A stretch of DNA of 64,000 bases from Nitrospira sp. (GTDB taxonomy: Bacteria; Nitrospirota; Nitrospiria; Nitrospirales; Nitrospiraceae). Under the pieces are notes generated by a model. The model did not search any database and had not been told where the DNA came from. It saw only the letters and a program-made list of their open reading frames with translations. The stretch lies in NCBI GenBank assembly GCA_022226935.1, contig CP092081.1:1833820-1897819 (forward strand), read 5' to 3'. Every line of letters starts with the position of its first letter. Within the stretch, counting starts at the first letter, position 1. This document shows, piece after piece, positions 4,380-58,033 of this stretch. A program made the translations under genes and the position numbers.

Positions 4380-4913
4380 GAACCTTGCTCCTTGCGAGGG
4401 GGTGTAACCTGTGCTGTTCGTAACAAATATAGCACCGGCCTCGATTTACGCAGGATTTCGCGGAGAGGCGCCAAAAATCGCTGTTATTACGAGTGGGTAC
4501 ACAGACAGTGGTCGCGGGAACTTGCTGTGGGCAAGCATGGAAAACAGCAGAATTTCAGGTGTTCTGAGAAGGCAACCGCCAAGAACATGGCCGGCAGTTT
4601 GCACAGGTTAAGACCAGCAACTAAACGCAGGGACGGAGTGAGTTTGAAGCGTTGAACGGGAGGTTGAGACCAGGATAGCTATGTAGCGGGGTAGTGGGCG
4701 TGGAACTTCGGCTGCATTCGTCGAGGTGGTGCGTCCTGAGGAAAGAAACTTCGAACTCCTTTTGATGTCTTTGCGTAATGGCAGGGCAGCCTTGACCATC
4801 TGCGGCGAACTTAAATATTCCGTAGCACTCGGAATTAGATTACTCAGACATTCTCTGCTCTAGTAGAATTCATCCTACGGCTTTCAGCCAGAAACCGACG
4901 TTGCCGCCAGTCC
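4380..4913. other. AT-richer gene-poor stretch with a decayed tRNA-Arg fragment
   Basis: About 530 bases without a credible gene on either strand. Base composition is visibly lower in GC than the flanks. It contains a degenerate copy of the tRNA-Arg 3' end (separate entry). It probably represents the left part of a decayed insertion next to tRNA-Arg. Confidence 0.5.
4702..4759 (-). repeat. Degenerate copy of the tRNA-Arg 3' end and its flank
   Basis: The stretch aligns with 5591-5644, covering the 3' end of tRNA-Arg(TCG) plus about 25 bases beyond it. Matching blocks include TTCGGCTGC, TGGTGCG and a GAAC near the end, with scattered substitutions and one or two small gaps; by eye roughly three quarters of positions agree over the first 40 bases. 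It looks like a decayed attachment-site repeat or a remnant of a duplicated tRNA. Confidence 0.5.
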
Positions 4914-46822: not shown

Positions 46823-48844
46823 GTGATCCGATTACCGGCAATGGGGTGGTCGGCACGACGTTGTATTTTTTTGGCAGGATTGACCGGAGTGGCCTCACAG
46901 CTCATTCACATCACCTTTCCTGACGGAACTCGAAAACAAGTACCAACAGGATGCACCGTCCGAGAGGCCTTAACCCCACAGGGCGGCCGCCTCGACGGGA
47001 AAATCCTGGCCGCCAAAGTCAACGGCGTGCCGATGGACTTGTTTCACGCCTTGGAGCAAGACGCAACCGTCGAACCCTTGACCTTTGAATCGGCCGAGGG
47101 ACGAGAGGTCTACCGCCACAGCAGCACCCACATCATGGCTCAAGCCGTCAAGGAAGTGTTCCCGAGCGCGCAACTCACAATCGGTCCGGCGCTCGAAGAC
47201 GGGTTCTATTACGATTTTGCGTTCGACCGACCGTTCACCCCGGAAGACCTGGAAAAGATCGAAGCCCGCGCCATTGAGATCACCAAGCGTGGCCTGACTG
47301 TCAGCCGTAGTGAACTATCCAAAGAAGACGCGATCAAATTTTTTCAGGACCGCGGAGAAGCGTACAAGGTCGAACTGATCAAGAGCTTCGAAGACGGTTC
47401 CCCGATTTCCCTTTACCGCCAGGGAGAATTCGTTGATCTCTGCCGCGGGCCGCATCTTCCCACTACCAGCTACGTGGGTGCCTTCAAGCTCCTCTCGACC
47501 GGCGGCGCCTATTGGCGCGGCGACGAACGCAATCCCATGCTCCAGCGGGTCTACGGCACTTCGTTCCCCACGAAAAAAGAACTTGATGCCCATCTGGCGA
47601 AACTCGAAGAGATCAAGCGTCGTGACCATCGCAAACTCGGGAAAGAGCTCGACCTCATCACGATTCAAGACGAAATCGGTCCCGGCTTGGTCCTCTGGCA
47701 TCCCAAAGGCTCGCTGATCCGCCTGCTCATCGAAAATTTCTGGCGAGAGCAGCATATCAAGGACGGATACGACCTGGTCTATTCCCCGCATGTCGCCAGA
47801 CTCGATCTCTGGAAAACCAGCGGCCACGTCGACTACTACCGCGAAAATATGTTTGCCGCGATGAAACTGGAAGGCAGCGAATATCAGCTCAAGCCGATGA
47901 ACTGCCCCTTCCATATCATGATCTACAAATCTCACTTGCGCAGCTATCGGGATTTGCCGATCCGGTACGGAGAATTGGGAACCGTGTATCGGTACGAACG
48001 AACCGGCGTGTTACATGGCCTCCTGCGGGTCCGCGGCTTTACCCAAGATGACGCCCATTTGTTCTGTCGTCCCGATCAGATCGAAGCCGAAGTCAGCCGC
48101 GTGCTGGACTTTACCTTTTTCGTCCTCGGCACCTTCGGATTCACGGAATTTGAAATCTATCTTTCGACCCGGCCCGAGAAATCGGTCGGCTCGGATGAGA
48201 ACTGGACCATCGCGACGAATGCCTTGGAGGCAGCGCTGAAGAGCCGGAACGTGGCCTATCAGGTGGATCCCGGCGAAGGCGTCTTCTACGGCCCGAAAAT
48301 CGACATCAAGATCAAAGATGTCTTGGGTCGTTCCTGGCAATGTTCGACGGTTCAGGTCGATTTCAACAATCCCGAACGTTTCAAGCTGGCTTATACCGGC
48401 GAAGACGGTAAACACCACCAGCCCATTATGATTCATCGCGCGCTCATGGGTTCGATTGAGCGCTTCTTTGGCATTTTGATCGAGCACTATGCCGGCGCCT
48501 TCCCGACGTGGCTGGCTCCGGTTCAAGCAGTGGTGCTGACGATTACCGACCATCAGCAGGAATTCGCGGCAAAAGTCGTCTCCACCCTCAAGAGCCACGG
48601 ATACCGGGTCGAGGCGGATCTCCGCAATGAGAAAATCGGGTTTAAAATCCGGGAAGCAGAAAAGAACAAGATCCCTTACATGCTGGTCGTGGGGGACAAA
48701 GAAGTACAGAGCGGCATGGTGGCGGTTCGCGGGCGGAGCGGCGCAAACCATGGAACCATGCCGGTCGAACAATTCCTGGAACTCATTCGCACAGACACCA
48801 ATCACGCATTGCGCGACACTGCAACCCACTCACAAACGAGGTGA
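46823..48844 (+). CDS. thrS: Threonyl-tRNA synthetase
   Basis: Up to 673 residues. Seen: N-terminal TGS domain (ITFPDGTRKQVPTGCTVREAL), editing domain with HSSTHIMAQAV and the later Cys/His site (VDLCRGPHLP), class II core with motif 2 RYERTGVLHGLLRVRGFTQDDAH in parts and motif 3 HRALMGSIERF, and the anticodon domain. Known: charges tRNA-Thr and clears Ser-tRNA-Thr. The first 20 residues are not typical of the family; a GTG at 46889 (VASQLIHITF) is a good alternative start. Its stop is one codon before infC. Confidence 0.95.
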   Translation: MIRLPAMGWSARRCIFLAGLTGVASQLIHITFPDGTRKQVPTGCTVREALTPQGGRLDGKILAAKVNGVPMDLFHALEQDATVEPLTFESAEGREVYRHSSTHIMAQAVKEVFPSAQLTIGPALEDGFYYDFAFDRPFTPEDLEKIEARAIEITKRGLTVSRSELSKEDAIKFFQDRGEAYKVELIKSFEDGSPISLYRQGEFVDLCRGPHLPTTSYVGAFKLLSTGGAYWRGDERNPMLQRVYGTSFPTKKELDAHLAKLEEIKRRDHRKLGKELDLITIQDEIGPGLVLWHPKGSLIRLLIENFWREQHIKDGYDLVYSPHVARLDLWKTSGHVDYYRENMFAAMKLEGSEYQLKPMNCPFHIMIYKSHLRSYRDLPIRYGELGTVYRYERTGVLHGLLRVRGFTQDDAHLFCRPDQIEAEVSRVLDFTFFVLGTFGFTEFEIYLSTRPEKSVGSDENWTIATNALEAALKSRNVAYQVDPGEGVFYGPKIDIKIKDVLGRSWQCSTVQVDFNNPERFKLAYTGEDGKHHQPIMIHRALMGSIERFFGILIEHYAGAFPTWLAPVQAVVLTITDHQQEFAAKVVSTLKSHGYRVEADLRNEKIGFKIREAEKNKIPYMLVVGDKEVQSGMVAVRGRSGANHGTMPVEQFLELIRTDTNHALRDTATHSQTR

Positions 48845-48847
48845 CCT

Positions 48848-49354
48848 ATCGTCCCTAAATTACGTGTAAACCGGGAAATCAGGATTCGGGAAGTTCGTGT
48901 CATCGGTCCTGACGGCGAGCAATTGGGAATACTGCCGACCGTAGAGGCATTCAATAAGGCACAAGAAGGGGGTTACGATCTCGTTGAGGTCGCCCCGACT
49001 TCGCAGCCTCCGGTTTGCCGTATCATGGACTATGGGAAATATAAGTTCGAGCTCAGCAAAAAGGATCACCAGAGCCGGCGGCACCAGAAATCCACCCAGG
49101 TCAAAGAGATCAAGCTGAGACCGCGCACGGACAAACATGATCTCGAGATCAAAATCCGCCAGATCAAAGAATTTCTGGCCGATGGAAATAAGACCAAGGT
49201 GACTCTCACGTATCGCGGGCGTGAGATGGCCAATCAGGAAATGGGTCGCACGATGATGACGAGTGTGATTCAGCAGTGCACGGAAGCGGGAACCGTCGAG
49301 TTTGCGCCGAGGATGGAAGGGCGGAGCCTCATTATGATTTTGGCTCCCAAATAG
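48848..49354 (+). CDS. infC: Translation initiation factor IF-3, with an ATC start codon
   Basis: 168 residues. Seen: RVNREIRIREVRVIGPDGEQLGIL, GYDLVEVAPTSQPPVCRIMDYGKYKFE in parts, and the C-terminal KEIKLRPRTDKHDLEIK. The frame contains no ATG, GTG or TTG before the conserved N-terminus: the thrS stop TGA (48842-48844) is in the same frame, leaving only CCT-ATC-GTC-CCT. ATC at 48848 follows GAGGTG by four bases. Known: infC uses rare non-canonical starts (AUU in E. coli) so that IF-3 represses its own translation. Part of thrS-infC-rpmI-rplT. Confidence 0.93.
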   Translation: MVPKLRVNREIRIREVRVIGPDGEQLGILPTVEAFNKAQEGGYDLVEVAPTSQPPVCRIMDYGKYKFELSKKDHQSRRHQKSTQVKEIKLRPRTDKHDLEIKIRQIKEFLADGNKTKVTLTYRGREMANQEMGRTMMTSVIQQCTEAGTVEFAPRMEGRSLIMILAPK

Positions 49355-49387: not shown

Positions 49388-49585
49388 ATGAAGATGAAGA
49401 TGAAAACCCACAGCGGCGCGAAGAAGCGGTTCAAGCGCACAGGCACCGGCAAATTGGTTCGCCGGAAGGCCGGCGGTCGGCATTTGCTGACCGGCAAGCC
49501 GCGCGACCGCAAGCGGAACCTGAAGGGGGCCACGGATGTCTCCTCCGCCTCGACGCCCGCGTTGAACAAATTACTTCCGCAGTAA
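49388..49585 (+). CDS. rpmI: 50S ribosomal protein L35
   Basis: 65 residues. Seen: KMKTHSGAKKRFKRTGTGKLVRRKAG, HLLTGKPRDRKRNL and the C-terminal basic helix. Three in-frame ATGs (49388, 49394, 49400) are close together; the first is nearest an AAGGAATGAGAG stretch. Between infC and rplT as in most bacteria. Confidence 0.94.
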   Translation: MKMKMKTHSGAKKRFKRTGTGKLVRRKAGGRHLLTGKPRDRKRNLKGATDVSSASTPALNKLLPQ

Positions 49586-49628: not shown

Positions 49629-49997
49629 ATGCCTCGTACAAAAGGTGGTCCGAAAACCAGACAGCGGCGAAAGAAGCGCCTAAAACTGGCGAAAGGCCAG
49701 TATGGCGCCAAAAGCCGGCTGTTCCGAACAGCAACCGAATCAGTGGATAAAGGGCAGGCTTACGCGTACTCAGGGCGGAAGCAGCGGAAACGCGATTTCC
49801 GCCAGCTCTGGATCGCGCGCATCAGCGCTGCGACCCGCTTGCATGGCATCGCGTATAGCCGATTCATGAACGCCCTGAAGAAGGCGAATATCTTATTGGA
49901 TCGGAAAGTACTGTCCGATATGGCAATCCGGGATATGGCGGGATTTGAGAAGCTCGTCGGGGTTGCCAAGCAGCAGCTCGCCACTGCCGCGAGCTAA
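49629..49997 (+). CDS. rplT: 50S ribosomal protein L20
   Basis: 122 residues. Seen: MPRTKGGPKTRQRRKKRLKLAKG, FRTATESVDKGQAYAYSGRKQRKRDFRQLWIARI in parts and the C-terminal KVLSDMAIRDM. Known: assembly protein that binds 23S rRNA and, in some bacteria, its own operon leader. AAAGGAG lies upstream of the ATG. The operon ends here at a strong hairpin rather than continuing into pheST. Confidence 0.96.
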   Translation: MPRTKGGPKTRQRRKKRLKLAKGQYGAKSRLFRTATESVDKGQAYAYSGRKQRKRDFRQLWIARISAATRLHGIAYSRFMNALKKANILLDRKVLSDMAIRDMAGFEKLVGVAKQQLATAAS

Positions 49998-50015: not shown

Positions 50016-50056
50016 CGTGACGGGAAGATCCTAATCGAACGGATTTTCCCGTCACG
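50016..50056. terminator. Bidirectional terminator hairpin between rplT and pheT
   Basis: CGTGACGGGAA (50016-50026) pairs with TTCCCGTCACG (50046-50056), extended inward by GATCC/GGATT (one G-T pair) to a 16-bp stem with a 9-base loop. The right arm contains the pheT stop codon. AA and TT runs in the arms could serve either direction. Confidence 0.7.
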
Positions 50057-51770
50057 CTTCATCCAGCAGTCGATCGATTTCCAACTCTAGCGCAACTGCC
50101 GGCACACCAATCTGCCACTGTTCTAACACTTCGGGATGCAGCTCCCCGAGCAGTCCGATGGCTTGTCCATTCAGCATGATTCTTCCTGCCCTGCCCTCAA
50201 GGAACGACGGGTGAGGGACCGGCTCCAACGTAAAAGAACGGTCCAAATAATAGAGCAGCAAATCGAGGCAGGAATGAATTTCCGAGAAGTGCGCCCCGGC
50301 ATGGGCAATGACCGCCCCTAACACCGTGATCGTCCGAGATCCGACATCGGCGCGGGCATCGGGCACCGCCACTTCCCCGACCTCGAACATCCGATGCGGA
50401 TAAAACGCCCGGCTTGAATTCGTCTCCACCTGCAACAACGAAGGGGTGATCCACTGGCGCAAGCAGGAATAGCTGAGCGACATGACATTATCCACTTCCA
50501 CGACTTTCGCCCACTCGCTGCCATCCAAGCGCATGCGTGTGCAAAAATCCTGGTGCGACCCCATGATGTTGGAAATGATCTCCTGAAACTCCATCCCCAC
50601 CATGAGATGACGAACCCGGTCGGCCATTTGCTCCAACCGGGACAGTCCTCCCACCGTGAACTGCGACGGCATGACTGGAGCAAACCGTGCATAGCCCTGA
50701 CTGATCGCCACATCCTCCACCACATCGACAGTATGCAGCAGGTCGTTGCGATACGGCGGCAACTGCACAGCCACCTTGAGGCCGGCTGATTTCACCGTGT
50801 AGCCATAAGACTTGAGCGCTGTGGTGACTTCTTTGCTACCCAACGCTTCTCCCAGCGCGGCTTCGATGGCCTTGAGCGGAATCGACCGCGGCGCGCCGAA
50901 ATCGATCGGCGTCTGCCAGCGTTTGCCGAAGGGAGTTTTCACCGGCGACTGAATTTCAACCGGCGCAATGACGGCTCCGCGGTCGGCAAGGTTCGCGGCA
51001 AAAATGTTCAATGTCAGCGCGACCATGTGAAGATCAGTCCCGGTCACCTCTACGAACAGGTGATCGTCTCCTACCTGCACTTCGCCGATTTCGCGGCTAT
51101 TGATGATCGGAGGAAACGACAAGACTTGCCCCTTGGCATCACGCAGGATCGGCAATCGATCGTGGCCGCTGACGATGCCGCCATACTCCACGCCTTTAGG
51201 ATGGACCATCAGAATCTCGCGCAACGTCATCACCGTTTCCATGCCCAGCGGCATGAATCGCACGTCATCCGGCTTCACCAGATCATACGATACGGGAAAG
51301 GCAATCGGCGCCAGACGATAGAGGCCGATAGACACCGACCGGCGTTTGCGCCCGAAAATATCCGCCAGTTTTTCCTGCGTCTGGATCAGTTGCGCCAGAC
51401 CGGATGCCGTCACGCGATAACCGATCGCCGTACAGGCTGCCACATAGGGACGCACCTGCTCCAGTCCCGGTGCCACGACGAGTTTTCCGGCCACGCGTTT
51501 CTGCTTCTTGAAGAAGGGATAGGTACTCGCCGCGCCCTGCTGCTTGGTCCTGATCTGCCGCGCGATCCCTTCGCAACACCACAAATCCGGCCGGTTGCTG
51601 TCCTGCAACTCAATGCGTAATTCACCGGTCTCGGGATTGTGCCCTTTTAATTCACCTTTCACCAACATCAGCCATTGCTCAAGCTGGTCGATCGAAATAC
51701 GGGACGCCGTTTCGTCCGGCCCGGCAATCAACGCCTCGAGATCGTCTCGTTGTAGGGAAATGGTGGGCAT
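50052..51770 (-). CDS. pheT: Phenylalanyl-tRNA synthetase beta subunit, archaeal/eukaryotic type
   Basis: 572 residues; bacterial PheT is about 800. Seen: MPTISLQRDDLEALI, SIDQLEQWLMLVKGELKG, IELQDSNRPDLWCCEGIARQIR in parts and a B3/B4-like and B5 core; missing are the bacterial N-terminal EMAP-like tRNA-binding domain and the C-terminal anticodon-binding FDX-ACB domain. This is the archaeal architecture. Known: with PheS it forms an (alpha-beta)2 enzyme that charges tRNA-Phe. It lies 12 bases after pheS and converges on rplT. Confidence 0.9.
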   Translation of the reverse strand: MPTISLQRDDLEALIAGPDETASRISIDQLEQWLMLVKGELKGHNPETGELRIELQDSNRPDLWCCEGIARQIRTKQQGAASTYPFFKKQKRVAGKLVVAPGLEQVRPYVAACTAIGYRVTASGLAQLIQTQEKLADIFGRKRRSVSIGLYRLAPIAFPVSYDLVKPDDVRFMPLGMETVMTLREILMVHPKGVEYGGIVSGHDRLPILRDAKGQVLSFPPIINSREIGEVQVGDDHLFVEVTGTDLHMVALTLNIFAANLADRGAVIAPVEIQSPVKTPFGKRWQTPIDFGAPRSIPLKAIEAALGEALGSKEVTTALKSYGYTVKSAGLKVAVQLPPYRNDLLHTVDVVEDVAISQGYARFAPVMPSQFTVGGLSRLEQMADRVRHLMVGMEFQEIISNIMGSHQDFCTRMRLDGSEWAKVVEVDNVMSLSYSCLRQWITPSLLQVETNSSRAFYPHRMFEVGEVAVPDARADVGSRTITVLGAVIAHAGAHFSEIHSCLDLLLYYLDRSFTLEPVPHPSFLEGRAGRIMLNGQAIGLLGELHPEVLEQWQIGVPAVALELEIDRLLDEA

Positions 51771-51782
51771 GATGTGATGATC

Positions 51783-53327
51783 CTAAAAACTTCCCCGCAT
51801 AGTGCGAATGAATTCCAAATCCGCCGAGAAGAGGTCGCGGATATCATGGATGCCCAACGCCACCATCGCCATGCGATCCAGCCCGAGCCCCCAGGCAATG
51901 ACCGGCACCGAAACCCCGAGCGGCGTCGTCACTTCAGGCCGGAACAATCCTGCGCCGCCCAATTCCATCCAGCCCAGTTTCGGGTGGCGCACATGCATTT
52001 CGACTGAAGGCTCGGTGAATGGGAAATAGGCCGGAAGAAATTTTACTTCCTTGGCCTGCGCCACTTCGCGGGCGAACAGATTCAACAATCCCAACAACGT
52101 TCGGAAGTTGATATCCGAACCCAAGACGATCCCTTCGACCTGGAAAAAATCGGTCGCATGCGTGGCATCCACCTGGTCGTAGCGAAAACAGCGGGCGATG
52201 GAGAAGTATTTTCCCGGCACCGACGGGCTCGTCGCCAGCCTGCGCGCAGAGACCGCCGTCCCTTGGCTCCGCAATACCAACCGCCTAGCTCGCTCCGCAT
52301 CGAACTGATATCCCCAGCCGGTTGATCCTGCCCTCGCTCCATTTTCGTGGACCTGCGTCACGTTCGTCAGATACGGCTCGGCGATGTCGCGGGCATGGGT
52401 CGGGTTTTTCACAAAATACACGTCGTGGATATCCCGCGCCGGGTGAAACTGCGGCATGAACAACGCGTCCATGTTCCAGAACTCGGTCTCCACGAGCGTC
52501 CCGCGCATTTCCTGGAACCCCATGCTGACCAGTTTGAGTTTCACGAGATCCAGGAATTCTCGATACGGATGCCGTTTTCCCGCCGCAATCCTCGGGGCCC
52601 GCAGACTGATCGTATATTTCCGGAACTGCTTCGTCCGCCAGGCGCCTTCCTTAAGAAGCTCAGGCGTCAATTGCGAGACTTCCTCCGCGACACCGTCACG
52701 CGACAGTTGATCAGCCACCTCCTGGCCGGAAGGCGTCAGCAGAAACGATCGGGTCACTCGCTCATCCACACGGAAAGGCTCGCGCGCGTTTCCACGCTTG
52801 ACCGCATGTTGTTGAAGCACCGCCCGGAGCGGCTCCGCAAAGGTTTGTAACTCACGTTGTCCGCTCCGCAATTCTTGCAGCAGCGCGCGCATCGCCTCCG
52901 CCGTGGGGCTGTTCCGACCGGTGCTTTCAATACAGCCGCCCTGCACAATGAGAATGGCGCCTTCTTTCTTGAGAGTCCCGACCGCCTTGCTGACATCCGA
53001 CGGTTCAAGTGCTTCTTTGGCCTGAATGTCTTGGATCGTCAGACGCTTTCCAGTCTGTCCGGCTTCACGCGCCGCCGACAGCACGCGTTCAATCGGCGCG
53101 TACTTCTCGAAAAATACCTCACCGATCGGTGTCAACGACGCGATGTACGCCACCGTTTCGGCATGCACGGCAATCAAGGATTTGGCCAAGAGCCATTCGA
53201 CGGCCATGCTTAACTGCGAGGGTTCCAGCCCGGTGGAGTCCGCAAGGTGATCGAGCGTGGAGGGCGAGCCAGGCTGCGGAGCCAATGCCAGCAGCACTTT
53301 GCTTTCGAGAGGATGAAGATTATCCAT
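51783..53327 (-). CDS. pheS: Phenylalanyl-tRNA synthetase alpha subunit, archaeal/eukaryotic type
   Basis: 514 residues; bacterial PheS is about 330-350. Seen: N-terminal winged-helix domains (LHPLESKVLLAL, LSMAVEWLLAKSLI, LTPIGEVFFEKYAPIE) as in archaeal and eukaryotic PheS, then a class II core with motif 2-like YFSIARCFRYDQVDATHATDF in parts, MELGGAGLFRPEV and GLGLDRMAM. Also WGYQFDAERARRLVL. Bacterial PheS starts instead with a coiled coil. It follows rpe by 27 bases. Confidence 0.9.
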   Translation of the reverse strand: MDNLHPLESKVLLALAPQPGSPSTLDHLADSTGLEPSQLSMAVEWLLAKSLIAVHAETVAYIASLTPIGEVFFEKYAPIERVLSAAREAGQTGKRLTIQDIQAKEALEPSDVSKAVGTLKKEGAILIVQGGCIESTGRNSPTAEAMRALLQELRSGQRELQTFAEPLRAVLQQHAVKRGNAREPFRVDERVTRSFLLTPSGQEVADQLSRDGVAEEVSQLTPELLKEGAWRTKQFRKYTISLRAPRIAAGKRHPYREFLDLVKLKLVSMGFQEMRGTLVETEFWNMDALFMPQFHPARDIHDVYFVKNPTHARDIAEPYLTNVTQVHENGARAGSTGWGYQFDAERARRLVLRSQGTAVSARRLATSPSVPGKYFSIARCFRYDQVDATHATDFFQVEGIVLGSDINFRTLLGLLNLFAREVAQAKEVKFLPAYFPFTEPSVEMHVRHPKLGWMELGGAGLFRPEVTTPLGVSVPVIAWGLGLDRMAMVALGIHDIRDLFSADLEFIRTMRGSF

Positions 53328-53354: not shown

Positions 53355-54062
53355 CTATCGTTGGGCAGCTAGACTTCTACCGGTACGTGGCGGTGCGACA
53401 CGACCGGCTCTGAGCGCCGTAATGGCCGCAGCATAATTATGCTCGGAAAAGACCGCTGATCCTGCCACCAACACGTCGGCGCCTGCCGCGAGTATGGATT
53501 CCGCGTTGTCCGGTTTCACGCCCCCGTCTACTTCCAAGAGCGCATGGCTTTGGGTGCGGTCGATCAGCGCTCGGACCTCGGCGATTTTTCGTAAGGACGA
53601 AGGAATAAATTTTTGTCCCCCGAAACCCGGGTTCACCGACATGATGAGGATGAGATCGGCGTCGCTCACGATTTCGGACAGGGTGATTGCTGGTGTGGCA
53701 GGGTTCAAGGTGACCCCGGCCTTCGCACCGTGGTCCTTGATCACCTGCACCGTCCGATGCAGGTGAGGGCAGGTTTCCACATGAACCGTGAGATAGTTTG
53801 CGCCGGCCTCGGCAAACTCTCCGATGAACGCATCCGGATTGGTCATCATCAGATGCACGTCCAACGGCAGGCTGGTGACTTTTCTCAAGGCTTCAACCAC
53901 CGGGGGCCCGATCGTCAAGTTCGGCACAAAGTGACCATCCATCACATCGACGTGCAACCAGTCGGCACCCGCCTCTTCGACTTTGGCGACCTCTTCGGCC
54001 AGGCGGGCAAAATCTGCCGACAGAATGGACGGGGCTATGCAGACGGTCCTGCCGGTCATCAC
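53355..54062 (-). CDS. rpe: Ribulose-phosphate 3-epimerase
   Basis: 235 residues. Seen: APSILSADFARL, HVDVMDGHFVPNLTIGP, VHLMMTNPD, MSVNPGFGGQKFIP and LEVDGGVKPDN, the metal-binding TIM-barrel residues of the family. Known: interconverts ribulose- and xylulose-5-phosphate. The C-terminus carries about ten extra basic residues. Its ATG overlaps the rsmB stop by four bases. In the fmt-rsmB-rpe run. Confidence 0.94.
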   Translation of the reverse strand: MMTGRTVCIAPSILSADFARLAEEVAKVEEAGADWLHVDVMDGHFVPNLTIGPPVVEALRKVTSLPLDVHLMMTNPDAFIGEFAEAGANYLTVHVETCPHLHRTVQVIKDHGAKAGVTLNPATPAITLSEIVSDADLILIMSVNPGFGGQKFIPSSLRKIAEVRALIDRTQSHALLEVDGGVKPDNAESILAAGADVLVAGSAVFSEHNYAAAITALRAGRVAPPRTGRSLAAQR

Positions 54063-55561
54063 TCGACCCTCCGCAGACGGGCGGCAAAAAACGCATCCAT
54101 GTTATTCCTGTTGGCCATCGTAGACAGATCCCCTCGCGGGGTCAGAAACGGCAGACCGGCTGGGGGCAACCAGGGCGCGACCGAGTCGCGCTGAAATTCA
54201 CGATGAGACTGACAAAACTCGTCGATGACCGACTCGGTCTCTTCCGGTTCAATCGAGCAGGTACTATAGACCAACACTCCATCAGGCCGCAAGAGACGAC
54301 TCGTCGCGACGAGCAGGTCCAGCTGCACCTGTCGATGTTGCGCGATGGAGTCCGGCGTCTTGTACCACTTGGCTTCTGGGTGACGCCGCAGTACGCCAAG
54401 GCCGCTGCACGGCGCATCGAGTAAAATCCGATCGAACGGGCGCGACCACACCTCAGATGACGGAGCCGATATGCCCCGCTCTCCCGGCCCCGCCTCAGTC
54501 TCCATCAGCCGTCGCATGTCACCCGCGACTGGCGTGACGATCGTTACGCCCAGGCGCCGGCAATTGTCCATCACCCGGTCCAGACGTGACGCGACTCTAT
54601 CGACCGCGATGATTGCCCCTCGATTGTTCATGAGCGCCGCGATATGCGTCGCTTTGCCGCCAGGCGCGGCACAGGCGTCCAACACACGGTGTCCCGGCTG
54701 GAGGTCCAAGAGCAACGGCACAAGTTGCCCTGCTTCATCTTCGACATAAAAATGTCCTGCCCCGTATCCAGGGAGGTCGACGACTGGACCGGTGCGGCCT
54801 AGTTGAATGCCGACTTCGCTGATCGACGTGGACGCGGCTTCGACATGCGCCGTGCCCAAGTCAGCCAGGAGCGACGCTCGCGTAGTTCGAAGCCGGTTGA
54901 CGCGAAGTGTGAGTGGAGGAACCTCCACCGAAGCTCGGCACAAGACTTCGGCTCGCTCTGCCCCCCACTGCCCACACCAGCGCTCCACGAGCCACATTGG
55001 GCATGAGTACCGGACAGCCAGTGCCTCGATAGGATCCTTCGCGAGATCCGGCCATTCCGGAGGCGACGTTCGCAGCATGGCCCGCAGCACGGCATTGACG
55101 AATCCACTCCAATCGCGCCCTAGGCGCCGGCGCAGCTGTTTCGTCATCTGCACCGATTCGTTCACTGCTGCTGAGGCCGGCACTCGATCCAAGTACAGCA
55201 CTTGATACGCGCCCAGGCGCAACATGGTTTGCACGAGAGTAGGAAGTTTGGCGATACGCCGATCAGACAAGAGGCCTAGACGCCAATCCAGCGTTGCGCG
55301 ATACCGCAACACACCGCGCACGAGTTCCACCATAAAGGCCCGGTCGCGGAGATCGAGCCCGGCCTTCGCAGAAACCTGATCGAACAAGTCATCAGCCAAC
55401 GAGCCGGCTTCGTCGATGGCCACTAGCGCCTTGACGGCGGCATGCCGCCCGGGGGAGACGGCGTGGCCGGATGACGCTGGTTGCGGATCAGTTCCCATGG
55501 GCAGCAGACATGAACATTGCTGGAAATCGTGAATGGAATGCGCGCGCCCGCTCTGGGTCAC
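54059..55561 (-). CDS. rsmB: 16S rRNA (cytosine-967-C5)-methyltransferase
   Basis: Up to 500 residues. Seen: an N-terminal NusB-like RNA-binding domain (about 30-170), PLTLRVNRLR, SAM site VLDACAAPGGKATHIAAL, and catalytic cysteines in DAPCSGLGVLRRHPEAKW and YSTCSIEPEE. Known: methylates C967 of 16S rRNA. Starting at GTG 55561 overlaps the fmt stop in GTGA; an ATG 21 codons later is the alternative. The sun/rsmB-rpe-fmt grouping is common. Confidence 0.92.
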   Translation of the reverse strand: MTQSGRAHSIHDFQQCSCLLPMGTDPQPASSGHAVSPGRHAAVKALVAIDEAGSLADDLFDQVSAKAGLDLRDRAFMVELVRGVLRYRATLDWRLGLLSDRRIAKLPTLVQTMLRLGAYQVLYLDRVPASAAVNESVQMTKQLRRRLGRDWSGFVNAVLRAMLRTSPPEWPDLAKDPIEALAVRYSCPMWLVERWCGQWGAERAEVLCRASVEVPPLTLRVNRLRTTRASLLADLGTAHVEAASTSISEVGIQLGRTGPVVDLPGYGAGHFYVEDEAGQLVPLLLDLQPGHRVLDACAAPGGKATHIAALMNNRGAIIAVDRVASRLDRVMDNCRRLGVTIVTPVAGDMRRLMETEAGPGERGISAPSSEVWSRPFDRILLDAPCSGLGVLRRHPEAKWYKTPDSIAQHRQVQLDLLVATSRLLRPDGVLVYSTCSIEPEETESVIDEFCQSHREFQRDSVAPWLPPAGLPFLTPRGDLSTMANRNNMDAFFAARLRRVE

Positions 55562-56508
55562 GCCTGCGGCGGCGGAACAGCGTGCAGCCTGATGCCTTCG
55601 GTCACACGATGGCCTGCCAGGTATTGCGCCACCGTCATCCGGCGGCTATTGGATGGTTGGATGTCGAGAATCTGAATGGTTCCGGCCCCGGTCGCCACAT
55701 CGATGCGGTCTTTCGTCACCTTCGTGACGGTGCCGGCAGCTGCTTGCGGAGATTCCTCGCCGACCGACACGCGACAGAGAATCCAGCGCTCACCATTTAC
55801 ATACGTATACGCGCCGGGCCAAGGCGAAAGCCCCCGCACACGGTTCGCGATCTCTGTGGCCGGCAGCGTCCAATCGATGAGGCCATCTTCCTTCTTCAGC
55901 AATGGCGCCATGGTCGCCTGAGAATCATCCTGTCGTTCCGGCGTCAGTGTCCCCGCCTCCAGACGACGCAGGGTCTCGACCAGCAACCGTCCGCCAACAT
56001 CCGCAAGTCGAGGGGCCAGTGTGCCGGCCGTATCGTCCGGACGGATTTCCACGATCTCACGCAGCAGCATATCCCCGGTGTCCATGCCTTCCGCCATGAA
56101 CATGGTTGTGATGCCGGTTTCTCGTTCACCTCGGATAATGGCCCATTGCACAGGACCAGCCCCGCGATACTTCGGCAAGAGCGACCCATGTACATTGATG
56201 CAGCCTCGCGGCGGCATCGTCAGGACGGCCGGTGGCAGGATGCGGCCGAAGGCAGTCACCGCAATGACATCCGGCTTCCACTCGCGTAACGCGGCGAGAA
56301 AAGCCGGATCCTTCATCTTCAGAGGCTGGAGCACCGGAATGCCCTCGCGCTGGCAGACGACTTTCACCGGGGAAGGAATGACCTCCTGCCCACGGCCCTT
56401 CGGGCGATCCGGCTGGGTCACCACCCCGACGACCTGAGCATCGGACTTCAGCAACGCCTCCAATGAGGGCACGGCGAAGTCGGGCGTTCCCATGAATACG
56501 ATACGCAT
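55558..56508 (-). CDS. fmt: Methionyl-tRNA formyltransferase
   Basis: 316 residues. Seen: FMGTPDFAVPSLEALL, the catalytic Asn-His-Asp region with NVHGSLLPKYRGAGPVQWAI and GMDTGDMLL, and a C-terminal OB-type domain. Known: formylates Met-tRNA-fMet using 10-formyltetrahydrofolate. The initiator tRNA gene lies divergently 87 bases away. No def gene is next to it. It heads fmt-rsmB-rpe-pheS-pheT. Confidence 0.94.
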   Translation of the reverse strand: MRIVFMGTPDFAVPSLEALLKSDAQVVGVVTQPDRPKGRGQEVIPSPVKVVCQREGIPVLQPLKMKDPAFLAALREWKPDVIAVTAFGRILPPAVLTMPPRGCINVHGSLLPKYRGAGPVQWAIIRGERETGITTMFMAEGMDTGDMLLREIVEIRPDDTAGTLAPRLADVGGRLLVETLRRLEAGTLTPERQDDSQATMAPLLKKEDGLIDWTLPATEIANRVRGLSPWPGAYTYVNGERWILCRVSVGEESPQAAAGTVTKVTKDRIDVATGAGTIQILDIQPSNSRRMTVAQYLAGHRVTEGIRLHAVPPPQA

Positions 56509-56595: not shown

Positions 56596-56672
<77 letters not shown>

Positions 56673-56690
56673 ACGTAACTCATGACTTTC

Positions 56691-56728
56691 AAAGGGGTTG
56701 TCCGGTGTTCAACGGACAGCCCTTTTTT
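56691..56728 (+). terminator. Rho-independent terminator after tRNA-fMet
   Basis: GGGTTGTCCG pairs with CGGACAGCCC (one G-T pair), loop of about eight bases, followed by TTTTTT (56723-56728). It ends the tRNA transcript and may also receive the integrase transcript from the other side. Confidence 0.8.
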
Positions 56729-56776
56729 CTTTCCCCGCACCAATTGTCCGCGTTTTGTCCGTGTTCTCGCCCCTCT

Positions 56777-58033
56777 TCAGCCTACAGAGCCTGCACGCAA
56801 CGAGATAATCGGCGGCATTGTCGGAAGCGTTTGCACGTACGCGTCCGTTTTCAGCACTGCCTGACGAATATCGTCTTCATTGATAATGTTGTACCGGTCG
56901 AACACGTTTCGGGTTCGGTGCCCGCTGATCTTCATCGCAACCGCGGGATCCACCCCGGCGCGCACCATGTTTCTTACGGCCGTACGCCTCAAATCGTAGA
57001 TCAGCTTTCCAGCAATACCCACCTCTCGGCACGCTCGATTCCAAACCTTTCGGAAGTCCCCGAACGGCTTCCCGCCCCGATGGAAGATCAAAGCGCAGTC
57101 CAGCCGCCTAGCCTGCACACGTCGCTCAATGATCGTCCGCACCTCACCGGCCAATGCAATGACCCTTCCTCGTCGCGTCTTTGCGTCTCGCGCGTGGAGG
57201 CGAAGAGTCCAGGTTTCTCGGTCCAGCGTGTCCCATGTCAGCGCACGGATCTCTCCCGGCCTCATGCCGGTTCGATAGAACCAATCACAGAAATCCTTCA
57301 CGTCACTATCCCGCAGCCGGTCGAGGACAGCCTGGAAATCTCCTCGCTCGAAGAAGCCCTGCCTCGCATTGTTCTCTGGAAGGGAGGTGAATACCGGAAT
57401 GGTCGTCAACACCTGAGCCTCAACCGCCAAGGCGAATGCTCGTCTCAACCCTTCCAACTCCCGATTAACGGTTGCAGGCTGGGCGCCCTCTACTTGCCTG
57501 GAGGCGATGTAGCTCCGCAGTCGATCGGGCGTCACCGCAAGAGCACGATCCATCGCGAAGAATTTCCGAATGTGGGCGAGATGCGAGCGAAGTTGAGGCA
57601 AGGACTTCCGACCGTGAATGACATAGTCCTGCTCGAGACTCTGAAGCAGCTCGTCGATTGTGATTCGCTCTTGTCGAGGCCCTTGAAACCGCTGACCACC
57701 TCTGCGGGCGACAATAATCTCCTCCAAGCGGCTCTTCAGTTTTTTGCGCGCGTCCTTCTCAGTTGCTCCACCCGGCTCTCTATGCTCGATACTCTTCCCG
57801 TCTTTGGGAGCGTAATAGCTAATCCAAAATTGACCGCCACGTTGAAACACTCGCCCGCTTCCTCGCGGACTCTTCGTGGGAACCTTCTTGGGATGCTCTG
57901 CCGGCCACTGGGGAGATTGTTCGCTGATGAGGTCGGACAGCACAGGAAGGGTCTTGGCCAGGTCGGGCGCAATCTGTCTAAGCCGCTCAACTGCTTCCCT
58001 GTATGTCTGTTGAGGATTGACGAGGATATCCAT
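56777..58033 (-). CDS. int: Site-specific tyrosine recombinase (phage-type integrase)
   Basis: 418 residues. Seen: an arm-binding-like N-terminal region (GSGRVFQRGGQFWISYYAP), a SAM-like core-binding domain (about 125-215) and the catalytic domain with Arg258 (TGMRPGEIRAL), Lys285 (AKTRRGR), Arg349 (YDLRRTAVRN), His372 (SGH) and nucleophile Tyr381 (FDRYNI). The usual first His of HxxR is Tyr346. Known: catalyses integration and excision. ATG has TAAGGAGG nine bases upstream, which starts right at the stop of the RHH gene. Confidence 0.9.
   Translation of the reverse strand: MDILVNPQQTYREAVERLRQIAPDLAKTLPVLSDLISEQSPQWPAEHPKKVPTKSPRGSGRVFQRGGQFWISYYAPKDGKSIEHREPGGATEKDARKKLKSRLEEIIVARRGGQRFQGPRQERITIDELLQSLEQDYVIHGRKSLPQLRSHLAHIRKFFAMDRALAVTPDRLRSYIASRQVEGAQPATVNRELEGLRRAFALAVEAQVLTTIPVFTSLPENNARQGFFERGDFQAVLDRLRDSDVKDFCDWFYRTGMRPGEIRALTWDTLDRETWTLRLHARDAKTRRGRVIALAGEVRTIIERRVQARRLDCALIFHRGGKPFGDFRKVWNRACREVGIAGKLIYDLRRTAVRNMVRAGVDPAVAMKISGHRTRNVFDRYNIINEDDIRQAVLKTDAYVQTLPTMPPIISLRAGSVG

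Follow-up and report, generated by a model that had tools for sequence, protein, structure and literature searches.

The phenylalanyl-tRNA synthetase (PheRS) encoded in the stretch of Nitrospira sp. DNA analysed here (the window: 64,000 nucleotides, contig CP092081.1, assembly GCA_022226935.1) belongs to the archaeal/eukaryotic type in both subunits, and it is the only PheRS found in the genome. Our results support displacement of the native bacterial enzyme by an archaeal-type pair in Nitrospirota, a swap that is old and clade-wide and not local to the source genome, and the enzyme was replaced without tRNA-Phe becoming archaeal. Taken as a whole, this account (a sole, archaeal-type PheRS, acquired jointly as two genes, with loss of the native pair and a tRNA of bacterial identity) is one in which we place high confidence. 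In textbooks, PheRS serves as a marker of the divide between bacteria and archaea.

The PheRS pair and its surroundings

Around the pair, the window reads:

46823..48844, forward strand: thrS, heading the canonical thrS-infC-rpmI-rplT run
48923..49354 as listed, forward strand: infC (IF-3), its true start probably further upstream
49388..49585, forward strand: rpmI (L35)
49629..49997, forward strand: rplT (L20), followed in sister lineages by bacterial pheS-pheT
~50017..50055, between the converging rplT and pheT: 15-bp inverted repeat, folding into a hairpin on both strands
50052..51770, reverse strand: pheT, archaeal-type PheRS beta subunit, 572 aa, with B3/4 editing region, B5 and catalytic-like module
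51783..53327, reverse strand: pheS, archaeal-type PheRS alpha subunit, 514 aa, with N-terminal winged-helix extension and class II core
53355..54062, reverse strand: rpe, ribulose-phosphate 3-epimerase, next upstream of pheS
54059..55561, reverse strand: rsmB, 16S rRNA methyltransferase, overlapping rpe by 4 bp
55558..56508, reverse strand: fmt, methionyl-tRNA formyltransferase, heading the run that closes with pheS-pheT

Coordinates and lengths of PheS and PheT given in a preliminary description of this DNA are the same in the ORF list, and both ORFs are intact. Its claim that pheST converges on infC-rpmI-rplT from another gene run also stands: infC-rpmI-rplT stops at 49997 on the forward strand and the end of pheT lies 54 bp off on the reverse strand. 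Genes of the fmt-rsmB-rpe-pheS-pheT run are separated by small gaps or overlap, and the inverted repeat at 50017..50055 is probably a two-way terminator. GC3 is the same in pheS and pheT as in the neighbouring genes, which fits an old transfer.

Both ends of this neighbourhood hold features of their own. No in-frame ATG, GTG or TTG lies between the thrS stop and 48923, while a conserved IF-3 N-terminus is readable from 48848 (48848-49354, forward strand); infC probably starts at AUC at 48848, which recalls E. coli, where the infC start is AUU. Beside fmt, a tRNA-Met (cat) is followed by a phage-integrase family gene (56777-58033, reverse strand) and by unassigned ORFs beyond (region 56596-58033), probably an integrated element.

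Assignment of the pair to the archaeal/eukaryotic type is confirmed by NCBIfam models. PheS scores 581.9 bits against NF003210 (cut-off 350) and PheT 465.2 bits against TIGR00471 pheT_arch (cut-off 282.65), and PheT does not reach the bacterial model TIGR00472 pheT_bact (106.2 bits, cut-off 402.65). The general PheS model TIGR00468 is also passed by PheS, over the catalytic core only, and the PheS-related ligase SrmL (NF051887, cut-off 300 bits) is not reached (84 bits). The window pair has neither a beta subunit of ~800 aa above the TIGR00472 cut-off nor an rplT-pheS-pheT operon, the marks of a bacterial PheRS.

Domain layout agrees with this assignment. In PheT, Pfam finds nothing but B5 and the CLM domain, with no match to EMAP/tRNA_bind or FDX-ACB, and the 572-aa protein stops at the CLM; in PheS it finds the class II core only, together with weak N-terminal winged-helix matches (MarR_2 and DUF2582, both below their own cut-offs). 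Residues 1-210 of PheS are modelled confidently as helical and winged-helix-like in the predicted structure, and a fold search matches the PheS model near full-length to the human alpha subunit (3l4g_C), matches that are supportive only, the model being moderate overall (pLDDT 72.7). In archaeal/eukaryotic-type PheRS, the N-terminal extension of alpha consists of DNA-binding-like winged-helix domains and beta is without the C-terminal anticodon-binding domain B8 (PMC3275996); the EMAP-like B2 domain is likewise missing from beta of this type. The preliminary description was therefore right on the winged-helix N-terminus of PheS, on the absence of the bacterial EMAP-like and FDX-ACB ends from PheT, and on the overall architecture.

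By sequence and by fold, the solved structures nearest to the pair are those of cytosolic PheRS from human and other eukaryotes and of a Pyrococcus beta fragment. The P. horikoshii fragment (2cxi) and human PheRS (3l4g) share with the window pair domain layout, family-model match and editing-site residues; the window PheT is ~35% identical to its Pyrococcus counterpart and 27% identical to the human one. Sasaki et al. are reported to place L202, S211, D234 and T236 at the editing site of P. horikoshii PheT: L202, S211 and T236 are identical in the window PheT and D234 is changed to E, a change seen in nearly all bacterial members of archaeal-type PheT. An Asn equivalent to N217, an editing-site residue of P. 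horikoshii PheT (PMC3275996), is invariant.

The source genome is closed, a single contig of 4,229,538 bases (4.23 Mb), 99.4% complete, and is closest to Ca. Nitrospira defluvii, with which it shares 95% identity in the ThrS-InfC-RplT proteins. Genome-wide, the window PheS is the only strong PheS-core match, no bacterial PheT above the TIGR00472 cut-off is present, and a search for bacterial pheS/pheT returned no second PheRS, an outcome named in the preliminary description as support for displacement. Neither of the two results that it had named as counting against displacement appeared: no intact bacterial pheST elsewhere, and no nesting of these proteins in bacterial PheRS. Another PF01409 match, of 19.8 bits, was considered as a second PheS and rejected, its sequence reading as a 418-aa histidyl-tRNA synthetase. 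Contamination or mis-binning was rejected in view of the single contig and of the same layout in dozens of genomes.

The vacated rplT site across Nitrospirota

Among 246 Nitrospirota genomes, PheT scores above the archaeal cut-off in 139 and above the bacterial one in 95, and none in the families listed carries both types. The archaeal type is found in every family of the window's class and in six families outside it (f11, f12, f15, f18, f19 and f36); bacterial-type families include f25. In 16 bacterial-type families (f14, f16, f20, f21, f23-f27, f29-f34 and f38), rplT is immediately followed on its own strand by bacterial pheS-pheT, which usually closes a full thrS-infC-rpmI-rplT-pheS-pheT run; in archaeal-type lineages the bacterial pair is missing from this position. 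This synteny supports loss of native pheST at the window site, exactly where sister lineages keep that pair. The preliminary description had proposed horizontal replacement of native pheST with loss at this site; both parts are supported by the single copy in the genome and by the vacated site as compared with sister lineages, and the event predates the source genome.

The convergent layout is widespread. For archaeal-type cases with both genes on the same contig, among the best matches listed, rplT and pheT converge within <10 kb in 71 of 74, with a median gap of 147 bp, across families f1, f2, f7, f8, f12, f18 and f19, and pheT is mostly the tail of a (fmt-rsmB-)rpe-pheS-pheT run. Linkage of pheS to rpe, mostly with rsmB and fmt as well, is found in most archaeal-type Nitrospirota loci.

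On a ThrS+InfC+RplT tree, four changes of PheRS type are needed, three of them forced by supported branches, and bacterial-type f16 and f23 are placed beside archaeal-type f15. With at least three forced changes, a single clean swap is too simple a history: events within the phylum, whether gains, losses or internal transfers, number more than one, and a single simple gain does not fit.

Bacterial PheT of most bacterial-type Nitrospirota families is ~690-720 aa long (e.g. loci L042, L055 and L057). These proteins match TIGR00472 only from position ~157, so that they seem to lack the N-terminal part in which the EMAP-like B2 domain lies; PheT of f13 and f16 is full-length.

Relatives in other phyla and the origin of the pair

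Archaeal-type PheRS is known in Spirochaetaceae (Borrelia, Treponema and Spirochaeta; PMC3191353), where, according to PMC2939571, Woese et al. were the first to notice it. There, too, alpha and beta are archaeal-type and of similar size, were gained together, and the bacterial enzyme is absent; as in Nitrospirota, other members of Spirochaetota keep the bacterial type. The spirochaete precedent named in the preliminary description is reproduced in our sample, where 27 of 149 genomes carry archaeal-type PheT. A scan of named genomes also found it in Latescibacterota (18 of 64 genomes in the latescibacterial sample), in MAGs labelled Planctomycetes, Deltaproteobacteria and Armatimonadetes, and in a single Gemmatimonadota-labelled MAG that is placed in the Latescibacterota group, a patchy distribution. 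Nitrospira is not mentioned in PMC3191353, and we found no description of archaeal-type PheRS in Nitrospirota in the open-licence literature, although database gene names may already be correct. The Nitrospirota case extends the swap already described for spirochaetes. It differs in gene context: no rplT or rpe neighbours turned up at the archaeal-type loci from other phyla, spirochaetes included.

PheT trees, with a 348-residue Pyrococcus PheT fragment as the one archaeal sequence and with two eukaryotic sequences, recover all Nitrospirota except f19 as a supported group (97; 95/95) and Spirochaetota as a group of their own (support 100), a separate and well-supported clade in the PheS tree as well. 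The divergent f19 PheT falls outside the other Nitrospirota, though a topology uniting it with them in one clade is not rejected (p-AU 0.458). The PheS tree agrees with the PheT trees in the main groups, as expected for joint transfer. One bacterial MAG, uncultured bacterium RUG13696 (L129), has a long-branched archaeal-type PheRS whose placement differs between PheT and PheS trees.

Family models and domain layout point to an archaeal donor. The gene pair may have reached Nitrospirota by way of another bacterium, e.g. a spirochaete or latescibacterial relative, having passed from archaea to bacteria once; we regard this variant of the replacement account as a serious contender, just short of probable. 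The archaeal-type PheTs of bacteria all fall in one group, separate from Pyrococcus (96/91, with that one archaeal fragment), and the best 80 loci of the genome collection include no archaeal one. However, the comparison is with a single archaeon, the list of 80 is ordered by similarity to the Nitrospirota query, and a clade of Spirochaetota plus the one Pyrococcus fragment is not rejected (p-AU 0.157), leaving room for separate transfers. Plasmid, phage and viral collections returned no archaeal sequences.

The pair may have come to face rplT by insertion at this site, or a neighbouring run may have been joined to it or inverted there. In genome G203 (f36), thrS-infC-rpmI-rplT-pheS-pheT lies on one strand with an archaeal-type pheS-pheT in the canonical position and direction, and flipping just those two genes would yield the window layout; an archaeal-type pheST that first entered the canonical operon, was then inverted in place toward rplT and joined rpe-rsmB-fmt is thus imaginable. 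We consider it unlikely: in the PheT tree, G203 does not branch at the base and has as its sister f15, where the genes are unlinked (two genomes have rplT and pheT apart), and the earlier-branching f11 has an rpe-linked pheST with rplT elsewhere. Repeat-like, hairpin-forming sequence in G203 (L158/L207), at ~2800-2900 between rplT and pheS and at ~4480-4660 between pheS and pheT, suggests a secondary rearrangement there.

The scatter of archaeal-type PheT over several bacterial phyla, in one group apart from the Pyrococcus fragment, could also reflect an early bacterial ancestor with both PheRS types and lineages that each kept one, with no transfer into Nitrospirota, but this is very improbable given that neither the 246 Nitrospirota genomes nor 12 further archaeal-type genomes (11 from other phyla, labelled or unknown, and one that carries a Nitrospinota label but groups with Nitrospirota) pair it with a bacterial PheT over the cut-off, and that two redundant essential enzymes would have had to persist side by side for very long before many parallel losses.

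tRNA-Phe and the probable course of the replacement

Replacement of the synthetase raises the matter of its tRNA. Of the tRNA-Phe determinants, G34, A35, A36 and A73 are common across life; yeast and Aeropyrum also use G20, and E. coli uses U20 and U59 (PMC9976931). Bacterial PheRS-tRNA pairs, according to PMC3275996, do not cross-react with archaeal ones. The source genome tRNA-Phe has U20 and U59. Over the 246 Nitrospirota genomes, position-20 patterns returned U20 in 187, C20 in 38 and the archaeal G20 in none; these patterns demand an exact GCTCAG...AGAGC D-stem and miss variants, and 21 genomes fit neither U20 nor C20. Unlike archaeal and eukaryotic cytosolic PheRS, the Nitrospira enzyme must use a tRNA-Phe without G20. 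Archaeal-type TyrRS and TrpRS of CPR are likewise archaeal-type synthetases in bacteria; their cognate tRNAs carry archaeal identity elements (PMC5370408), whereas Nitrospira tRNA-Phe keeps the bacterial letters.

C20 is confined to archaeal-type families, its 38 genomes falling in f1, f2, f5 and f10; of the 101 genomes of bacterial-type families, 97 have U20 and none has C20. The association of C20 with the archaeal type has a Fisher p of 3.6e-11, a value that ignores shared ancestry among few separate C20 lineages. Every matched tRNA-Phe of Spirochaetota has U20 and none C20, whichever PheRS is present, archaeal-type spirochaetes included, which indicates that the swap does not in general loosen position 20; the link between C20 and the archaeal type may be peculiar to Nitrospirota. 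We offer tentatively, and with slightly more doubt than belief, that the archaeal-type PheRS came to recognise a tRNA-Phe of bacterial identity, across the barrier between the two kinds of pair, and that position 20, once freed from the bacterial enzyme, drifted from U20 to C20. That tRNA-Phe has not become archaeal is a firmer point than this drift.

The 3′ part of tRNA-Phe recurs in the source genome as a perfect 50-bp copy with no surrounding tRNA (L188, G000:C1:4148304-4148353, and L189), ~433 kb from the true gene. It looks like a relic attachment site, and a similar partial copy is found in genome G237.

Under the replacement account, the ancestor of Nitrospiria and related Nitrospirota lineages would have gained both genes together, after which the native bacterial pair behind rplT would have been lost, leaving the acquired pair as the tail of the fmt-rsmB-rpe-pheS-pheT run that converges on rplT. 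Transcription of this operon would proceed from the fmt side and end at the 15-bp inverted repeat. As the sole PheRS of the organism, the products would form an alpha2beta2 tetramer in which alpha charges tRNA-Phe, the winged-helix domains of alpha contact the tRNA in place of the missing bacterial B8 domain, and beta strips Tyr from mischarged tRNA-Phe, an archaeal-type enzyme thus serving a tRNA of bacterial identity.

In the literature that we found, spirochaetes are the one bacterial exception named; to them can now be added a major lineage of nitrifiers, together with parts of other phyla. A conserved vacated site, together with sister lineages that hold the old operon, makes Nitrospirota a good natural experiment in the replacement of an essential enzyme, and the unchanged tRNA allows a direct test of how a PheRS of archaeal type can come to work on a bacterial tRNA-Phe.
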